Below are positions 51,385 to 53,355 of a DNA stretch of 64,000 nt, in pieces; within the stretch, counting starts at the first letter, position 1; each line of letters starts with the position of its first letter. The DNA is from Sulfuricurvum sp. PD_MW2 (GTDB lineage Bacteria > Campylobacterota > Campylobacteria > Campylobacterales > Sulfurimonadaceae). Position numbers and translations under genes: made by a program. The notes beneath the pieces were generated by a model. That model searched no databases, had not been told where the DNA came from, and saw nothing but the letters and a program-made list of their open reading frames with translations. The stretch is taken from the NCBI RefSeq assembly GCF_002633015.1, contig NZ_NSIU01000012.1, positions 1 through 64,000 on the forward strand, given 5' to 3'.

Positions 51385-51411
51385 GTTGAAAATCAAAAAT
51401 AGGACAGTAAA

Positions 51412-51663
51412 ATGAATGAACAACTGTTATTAGAACTTCAACATCATATATCACAAGTTGTCGGCGATCATACGGCTAAAATGGCAATGGCACTTAACAA
51501 CTATGTTTTGGATACGGCTGCATCAACCGCAATTTACTCTATCGAAAAATCAACCGGTAATAAACTGACCAATGATGAGAAGGATAAAATTTTGGCTTCA
51601 ATCGTTAGTGCGATGGATGGAAAGTTGGAAAATTACATCAAACAAGCATACGGAGCAGAGTAA
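51412..51663 (+). CDS. small helical protein, unknown
   Basis: An 83-residue protein, probably all helical and cytoplasmic (HISQVVGDHTAKMAMALNNY; NDEKDKILASIVSAMDGKL). I do not recognise a family. It may be cotranscribed with the transglutaminase-like gene or use its own promoter. The ribosome site is weak (AGGACAG). Confidence 0.6.
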   Translation: MNEQLLLELQHHISQVVGDHTAKMAMALNNYVLDTAASTAIYSIEKSTGNKLTNDEKDKILASIVSAMDGKLENYIKQAYGAE

Positions 51664-51699
51664 TCAGTAACTTTCGGTTTACTAACCGTATCAAAAAAA

Positions 51700-51716
51700 T
51701 GGAATAAACTTTGCTT
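51700..51716 (+). promoter_or_regulatory. putative sigma-54 (RpoN) promoter
   Basis: GGAA (51701-51704), six bases, then TTGCTT (51711-51716) matches the -24/-12 pattern of Campylobacter and Helicobacter sigma-54 promoters exactly, with GG-N10-GC spacing. Transcription should start near 51726, before the ribosome site AGGAAG and the ATG at 51751. Confidence 0.72.
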
Positions 51717-51750
51717 GTACATTTTAATCTTATCGGATTAAGGAAGAGTT

Positions 51751-51837
51751 ATGAGCATTGCTATCGGAAGTGTCTATTCGGCTATTTATGAGTACATTGA
51801 AGTATTCAGTGACGTATGGGCTGAAAAGATTTTTTAA
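51751..51837 (+). CDS. 28-residue small ORF behind sigma-54 promoter
   Basis: A 28-codon ORF (MSIAIGSVYSAIYEYIEVF, then a Trp- and Lys-containing end) with AAGGAAG 4-5 nt upstream of its ATG. It is aromatic-rich and amphipathic, possibly membrane-active. It ends 9 bp before the convergent mqo stop. It is too short for reliable coding statistics; support comes from the promoter, ribosome site and ORF lining up in the expected order. The transcript could also be a small RNA. Confidence 0.5.
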   Translation: MSIAIGSVYSAIYEYIEVFSDVWAEKIF

Positions 51838-51846
51838 TCCTTCAGA

Positions 51847-53355
51847 TCACTTATTCTTTTTCCATAAACTATGGGGTTTATCCCAGAATGATTCATGCGG
51901 CTTACCGATATGGATCTCTTCAAAGTACTCTTTTTCATGTTGATGCATCGCTTCGCGTATTGCATTGACGGTTTTCTTTTGCGCTTCTATCGGTGCTGAC
52001 AAAACGCAATATTCGCCATCGGTCAGTTCATTATTAAAGCGTTCTTCGTCAAACTTTTTACCAAGATATTGGACAATATAACGTACATCTCTCTCTGCAT
52101 TACCTAGACAACTGGTTGCACCCGGAGATGGCGTCATATTGAAAATAATCCCCTCGCCGGTATTGATGGACGCTTCTCCTAAAAGAAGTTTTTGCTGTTT
52201 TTTATCGATGACTTGGGGACGGACTCCTCCAAAGCCGTGTGCATAGCTAAATTCATGAAGCTGTAGGGACGGGACGATTTTACGAGCATCGTGTAAAAAC
52301 AGGCGTTTGTTTAACCATGGAATTTCGAATAAAAAATTACGAAAAATATAGTTTCGGATATCGGATTCCCGCAAAAGTTTCCATAATGCACTGAATACGT
52401 TTCGATCGAGCCGTAAGGTCTTCCAAAAATCCAGATAGGTGCCGCCGGTAAAGCGTTCAAGTTTTGGTAAAACGAGAGCTGTAGGACCGAACCGCGTATT
52501 GCCCCCTGCTAATATATCTGGATCTCCGTGCAGAGCTGCAAACGGGAGTTTTGGATTTTGAATCATATAGACTTTTCCGTTGAGGAGTTTCTCATTGGTG
52601 AGATAAAAACTCCCCGCTACCGGAAGACACGCATACTCTAGTCCATATCCCAAAGAGTGGGCTAAATAAAGACTGTGAGCACCCGCATCGACCACAACAA
52701 AGTCTGCGGTATAAATACCGTTTTTGGTATGGACAGTATAGCCGCGAGAACTATTTTTTTCGATGTTGATGATCGGAGAATCCAAAAAGAGATCAACCGT
52801 GGTATGGGGTTCATTGTTGGAATTTGTAATGAAAGATTCAGCCATTTTGCCATAATCGACTGTCGTCCATTGATCTTTAGCACCGATGCCGACGATTTGT
52901 TCAGGACGCTCTTTACCCTCATGATCAAATACAATACGCGGTTCAAGCGTTTTGAGCTGTTCTTTGTCCCATACTTCGAGATACGGAAAAAGTTCAGAAA
53001 ACTCTTCATACCGATGGAGTAGAAATTCTACTTCTTCTTCCCCGATCCCAAGCGCCATTTTTTGGTGGGAAAAGATGATGTCATTTTGGTAGCCGTGCTG
53101 AAGGCAATATTTTTCGACCATTTTAGCGGTACGTTTTGTAATTGCAGCTTTTGAGAGGGTATAGTTAGTTTCGATATCACCCACATGAATGGTTTGAGAA
53201 TTCGCAGTTCCTTTGGAGTTTAACGATGCAATCGAACCATATTTTTCTACAACCGCAATCTGGGTGATATCGGTATATCGAGCGAGTTCATACGCTAACG
53301 CACATCCTGATATACCTGCACCGACAATCAAAACTTCATAATGGTGATTCTTCAT
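51847..53355 (-). CDS. mqo: malate:quinone oxidoreductase
   Basis: FAD-dependent peripheral membrane enzyme that oxidises malate to oxaloacetate with quinone as acceptor; 502 residues. The FAD-binding GAGISGCALAYELAR is near the N-terminus, NSQTIHVGDIETNY is conserved in Mqo, and the C-terminal NMTPSPGATSCLGNAERD holds the second FAD region. It resembles the short Helicobacter-type Mqo. It is an oxidative partner to mdh and gltA. Confidence 0.88.
   Translation of the reverse strand: MKNHHYEVLIVGAGISGCALAYELARYTDITQIAVVEKYGSIASLNSKGTANSQTIHVGDIETNYTLSKAAITKRTAKMVEKYCLQHGYQNDIIFSHQKMALGIGEEEVEFLLHRYEEFSELFPYLEVWDKEQLKTLEPRIVFDHEGKERPEQIVGIGAKDQWTTVDYGKMAESFITNSNNEPHTTVDLFLDSPIINIEKNSSRGYTVHTKNGIYTADFVVVDAGAHSLYLAHSLGYGLEYACLPVAGSFYLTNEKLLNGKVYMIQNPKLPFAALHGDPDILAGGNTRFGPTALVLPKLERFTGGTYLDFWKTLRLDRNVFSALWKLLRESDIRNYIFRNFLFEIPWLNKRLFLHDARKIVPSLQLHEFSYAHGFGGVRPQVIDKKQQKLLLGEASINTGEGIIFNMTPSPGATSCLGNAERDVRYIVQYLGKKFDEERFNNELTDGEYCVLSAPIEAQKKTVNAIREAMHQHEKEYFEEIHIGKPHESFWDKPHSLWKKNK

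Follow-up and report, generated by a model that had tools for sequence, protein, structure and literature searches.

Two expectations meet at the locus described here. A product of 28 residues is smaller than gene callers usually accept, and the flagellar sigma-54 regulon of the Campylobacterota is usually listed as a set of structural and assembly genes. An earlier note on the window (the whole 64-kb stretch of Sulfuricurvum DNA that was analysed) nevertheless described a sigma-54 promoter followed by a 28-codon open reading frame in a gap between two genes, and proposed an unannotated small protein or small RNA of the flagellar regulon. The question raised by this locus is therefore which of these products it encodes, to which regulon it belongs and what the product might do.

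The promoter and its ribosome binding site

The promoter GGAATAAACTTTGCTT is located at 51701..51716 on the plus strand and reads GGAAT-AAACT-TTGCTT, with the -24 GG (51701-51702) and the -12 GC (51713-51714) separated in the window sequence by exactly ten nucleotides; the GGAA-N6-TTGCTT promoter with exact GG-N10-GC spacing described previously is thus present, in the extended form GGAAY-N5-TTGCTT of a flagellar sigma-54 class-II promoter. Transcription from it is predicted to start near 51726. A Shine-Dalgarno sequence AAGGA (51740..51744, plus strand), of which the AAGG is invariant in an alignment of seven genomes, lies 6 nt ahead of the ATG at 51751, and the 28-codon ORF MSIAIGSVYSAIYEYIEVFSDVWAEKIF occupies 51751..51837 on the plus strand and terminates with a TAA ending at 51837. 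The promoter, ribosome site and ORF therefore follow each other in the order originally given, and the ORF is aromatic-rich as stated, with six aromatic residues in the window's peptide (Y9, Y13, Y15, F19, W23 and F28). The size of the gap had to be corrected, as the intergenic space measures 183 bp (51663 to 51847) and not 88 bp; a figure of about 88 bp would be right only for the ORF, which is 87 bp long, or for the equally long segment between 51664 and the ATG. It should be noted that plain GG-N10-GC occurs 315 times in the window and is so common that weight can be placed only on the extended motif. Both strands of the 64-kb window together contain the strict motif a single time (0.13 in shuffles), and in combination with a Shine-Dalgarno sequence and ATG it occurs four times in the 2.26-Mb genome and not at all in the reversed control.

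Sigma-54 sites across the genus

A search of 41 Sulfuricurvum genomes with the pattern GGAA-N6-TTGCTT-N20-40-AAGGA-N5-10-ATG identified 110 places in 35 genomes, and none in the reversed control. Forty of the places, all other than the 28-aa unit, were fetched and read, and 34 were found to precede flagellar-type proteins, assigned by Pfam for one representative per kind and by sequence likeness for the others, which shows that the pattern marks flagellar genes in this genus. The kinds represented were the hook protein FlgE, flagellin, FlgL, the rod proteins FlgF/G, FliK, FliW and, in five copies, an LPP20-domain protein that may be FlgP-like; the count is 29 out of 40 when the LPP20-domain copies are left out. 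Of the six non-flagellar sites, three preceded a 48-aa ORF, two a 143-aa protein of unknown family and one an 83-aa protein that is unrelated to the 83-aa neighbour of the unit in the window. The bare motif has 25 matches in the window's own genome, eight of them before genes of a flagellar kind according to Pfam (those for FlgL, FliD, FliW, FlgE, FliK, FlgB, FlgI and an LPP20-type protein), and the remainder, many of which are intragenic, are probably due to chance. The placing of the unit in the flagellar regulon, which had been inferred from the promoter, is thus strongly supported by sequence comparison, given the share of flagellar-type sites and the empty reversed control.

The gene rpoN is present in all carriers of the unit. 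Two rpoN genes were observed in most Sulfuricurvum genomes, all seven carriers included (for example C13:17594-18052 and C3:37228-37680 in G000). It is conceivable, if unlikely, that the second RpoN copy or a non-flagellar activator reads the promoter and that the peptide serves a different sigma-54 circuit, for instance in nitrogen metabolism; the paired rpoN genes and the EAL-HDOD signalling gene that lies upstream at several of the loci would be compatible with this, but GGAAY-N5-TTGCTT with this leader is the form that flagellar genes carry across the genus.

Selection on the open reading frame

Orthologues of the window peptide were identified in six further Sulfuricurvum genomes at 46-82% identity. 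All seven copies (the window, G004, G016, G019, G023, G026 and G062) are 28 codons long, contain no indels, keep the reading frame intact and are preceded by the same promoter and Shine-Dalgarno sequence, so that both frame and promoter, when checked in close relatives, proved to be conserved. Most of the pairs in which dS could be measured had dN/dS values of 0.01-0.3, two pairs reached 0.49, and across three pairs that share no member the changes at codon positions 1:2:3 were distributed 7:3:34 (p = 4e-9). Selection at the amino acid level spans the entire ORF. The dN/dS values, the third-position substitutions and the absence of indels all indicate purifying selection on the peptide, and as far as the sequences can tell, the interpretation of the 28-aa peptide as a real small protein, with diverged DNA and conserved amino acids, holds. 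No match to it was found in Pfam, NCBIfam or PDB up to E = 10.

Between the two products originally proposed, the third-position changes favour the small protein and the weak fold speaks against the small RNA. A sigma-54-dependent regulatory sRNA or a dual-function RNA, with an incidental or secondary ORF, would agree with a short transcript, with a 5' leader that is alike in all seven genomes and with the existence in Campylobacter jejuni of CJnc230, which is RpoN-dependent and has flagellar roles (PMC11187230). We regard it as quite improbable, in view of the third-position excess, the frame which is never broken in seven genomes and a consensus fold of only -3.9 kcal/mol, whose covariation term is unfavourable (+0.31) and in which one pair out of 18 is compensated. 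Neither a terminator, hairpin or other, 3' of the ORF nor an Rfam match above the cut-off was found. The conserved fold with compensatory changes and the terminator that would mark a regulatory sRNA are thus missing at this locus, and the absence of a convincing fold, terminator or Rfam family makes the small RNA the weaker reading next to the small protein.

Distribution and genomic context

A search at the DNA level identified three true relatives besides the window, the remaining matches being due to chance. In an RpoN tree the seven carriers fall, together with a degenerate copy in G014, into one clade (support 99/91). The proposal that the unit is confined to this clade was softened after a genus-wide profile search located a divergent 28-aa copy, MLLSVYSVYSLVLENAEYQFQLLANKIF, in G028, a genome placed in the other main branch of the RpoN tree. 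The E-value of this copy (0.0065 per genome) would be insufficient by itself, and it is the equal length, the promoter (GGTAC-TTAAA-TTGCTT, a GG-N10-GC site) and the gene order which make it convincing; its peptide is 43% identical to that of G023. Eight residues (M1, S7, Y9, S10, E14, E17, A24 and F28) are invariant across all eight peptides. The other weak matches of the genus-wide search were, once read, without a sigma-54 site. A profile search of 399 genomes of the order found carriers only in Sulfuricurvum, other matches being weak, with a profile that is too weak to detect divergence of the G028 kind. A search of IMG/VR yielded no relative of the peptide and hence no sign of a phage origin. 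As the carriers comprise one clade of eight genomes (one of them degenerate) and one divergent genome, the unit is not a core part of the flagellum.

The G014 copy occupies the last 160 bases of its contig (L125, G014:C87) and shows a change from GG to AG at -24 and a stop at codon 9, beyond which the sequence is unrelated until the contig stops. These changes may reflect decay, an insertion or faulty assembly, and the copy was given no weight as an informative loss since the contig ends inside the ORF and may be misassembled.

Upstream of the unit is the gene for an 83-aa protein of unknown family (51412..51663, plus strand), which adjoins the unit in all but one of the seven genomes and is probably a separate transcription unit; a sigma-70-like site at 51386-51413 was not above shuffle expectation. 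This neighbour was detected in seven of the 41 Sulfuricurvum genomes, with relatives 82-90% identical and no family-library match above the cut-off, and is an orphan gene of the carriers' clade. Downstream, a convergent gene similar to FAD-dependent malate:quinone/2-hydroxyglutarate oxidoreductases (51847..53355, minus strand) has its stop 10 bp past the 28-aa ORF; a search for this gene in sister species, intended for an empty-site reading, found nothing. A gene for an EAL-HDOD signalling protein is near the unit in five of eight genomes: in G028 the 28-aa copy is directly downstream of it, and in G016, G019, G026 and G062, where it was identified by Pfam in G026 and by sequence likeness in the other three, it precedes both the 83-aa gene and the unit. 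The EAL-HDOD proteins of G028 and G026 are 29% identical over 412 columns.

In the same four genomes, G016, G019, G026 and G062, a Bac_globin gene in the same orientation follows the unit at a distance of up to about 100 bp, and in the window, G004 and G023 a convergent gene is found in its place. A role of the ORF as leader peptide or spacer, with the promoter serving this truncated globin by co-transcription or translational coupling, is very unlikely, since ORF and promoter are kept in the three genomes without the globin, the G028 unit has no adjoining globin either, and amino acid selection runs along the full ORF.

Predicted structure and possible function

AlphaFold2 modelled a construct of 31 residues (the 28-aa peptide plus three upstream in-frame residues, added for minimum length) as one helix covering residues 2-30, with a pLDDT of 91. 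The peptides have a net charge of -3 to -5 and contain 6-8 aromatic residues. The hydrophobic moment clearly exceeds that of shuffles in only two of the seven sequences, so that the helix is only mildly amphipathic, and as the moment is unremarkable in the other five, a clean amphipathic helix is not claimed. The eight invariant residues suggest that the peptide has a defined C-terminus and binds through a specific surface.

Taken together, we consider it probable that the 28-codon ORF is a protein-coding gene of the Sulfuricurvum flagellar class-II (RpoN, FlgS/FlgR-type) regulon whose peptide docks on a partner. The peptide would most likely be a flagellar class-II microprotein binding a protein or membrane partner, and our best guess is that its helix docks on a partner that is produced, or comes into use, while the class-II flagellar genes are expressed. 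We strongly infer that sigma-54 polymerase would initiate near 51726 at the assembly stage at which the genes for hook, rod, P-ring and FliK/FliW are turned on; the leader of about 25 nt with its good Shine-Dalgarno sequence would, to judge by selection on the frame, be translated into the 28-aa peptide, and the acidic, aromatic-rich single helix may then dock on a protein partner or membrane surface and thereby tune one step in signalling or in the assembly of the flagellum. Gene order suggests a single partner candidate, the EAL-HDOD protein. More tentatively, and with rather less confidence, the 28-aa peptide and the unrelated 48-aa one might represent a new set of fast-evolving microproteins in the sigma-54 flagellar regulon of Sulfuricurvum, the former being a peptide that regulates either the assembly of flagella or the neighbouring EAL-HDOD protein.

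The 48-aa micro-ORF MKFMDKIELVVKLKEKIAEAKATNEALALQLQALLDQVISNPQNSPAI is located behind a flagellar-type sigma-54 promoter at L096:1327-1470 on the minus strand (contig C29 of the window's own genome, near 13455) and was also observed at L137, L149 and L153; four genomes conserve it, differing mostly at third codon positions, and it has no Pfam match. A 27-aa ORF, MAxVIRKASGWMDRFEMQMGVWAEKLF, is conserved in five Sulfuricurvum genomes (L225:904-984, plus; L226:930-1010 region, minus; L227:967-1047, minus; L228:927-1007, plus; L229:894-974, plus), where it is divergent from a CI/S24-type repressor gene and has a palindrome-like AT-rich element upstream. Its C-terminus, (V/I)WAEK(I/L)F, is also that of the 28-aa peptide, and four of the five stretches scanned matched Pfam YmiC weakly, below the threshold.

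The presence of a selected 28-residue peptide behind a textbook promoter suggests that regulons of this type hold overlooked micro-genes. The promoter pattern, with no reversed-control match in 41 genomes, offers a cheap means of finding more of them, a 48-aa companion being already indicated.

Comparison with known systems

The -24/-12 promoter of the unit is shared with the RpoN class-II flagellar genes of C. jejuni and Helicobacter pylori (the FlgS/FlgR regulon; PMC3930126), and Sulfuricurvum's own hook, rod, ring and FliK genes carry the same form. FlgR is described as acting from solution in both H. pylori and C. jejuni (PMC3930126), and if this applies in Sulfuricurvum no enhancer would be expected at the unit. 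The passages of that account used here mention no product of about 28 aa, and the peptide differs from the products of that regulon in having been detected in only part of Sulfuricurvum and in lacking a homologue in the family libraries searched. In its very small size and in having been missed by annotation it resembles small proteins like the 34-aa CioY from the Ribo-seq census of C. jejuni (PMC11955535); the main text of that census never mentions RpoN, whereas the 28-aa unit has a sigma-54 promoter. The RpoN-dependent small RNA CJnc230 (FlmE) of C. jejuni is likewise small and belongs to the flagellar sigma-54 regulon, but it codes for no protein and arises by processing of the flgE transcript (PMC11187230), whereas the Sulfuricurvum unit has a promoter of its own and a conserved reading frame.
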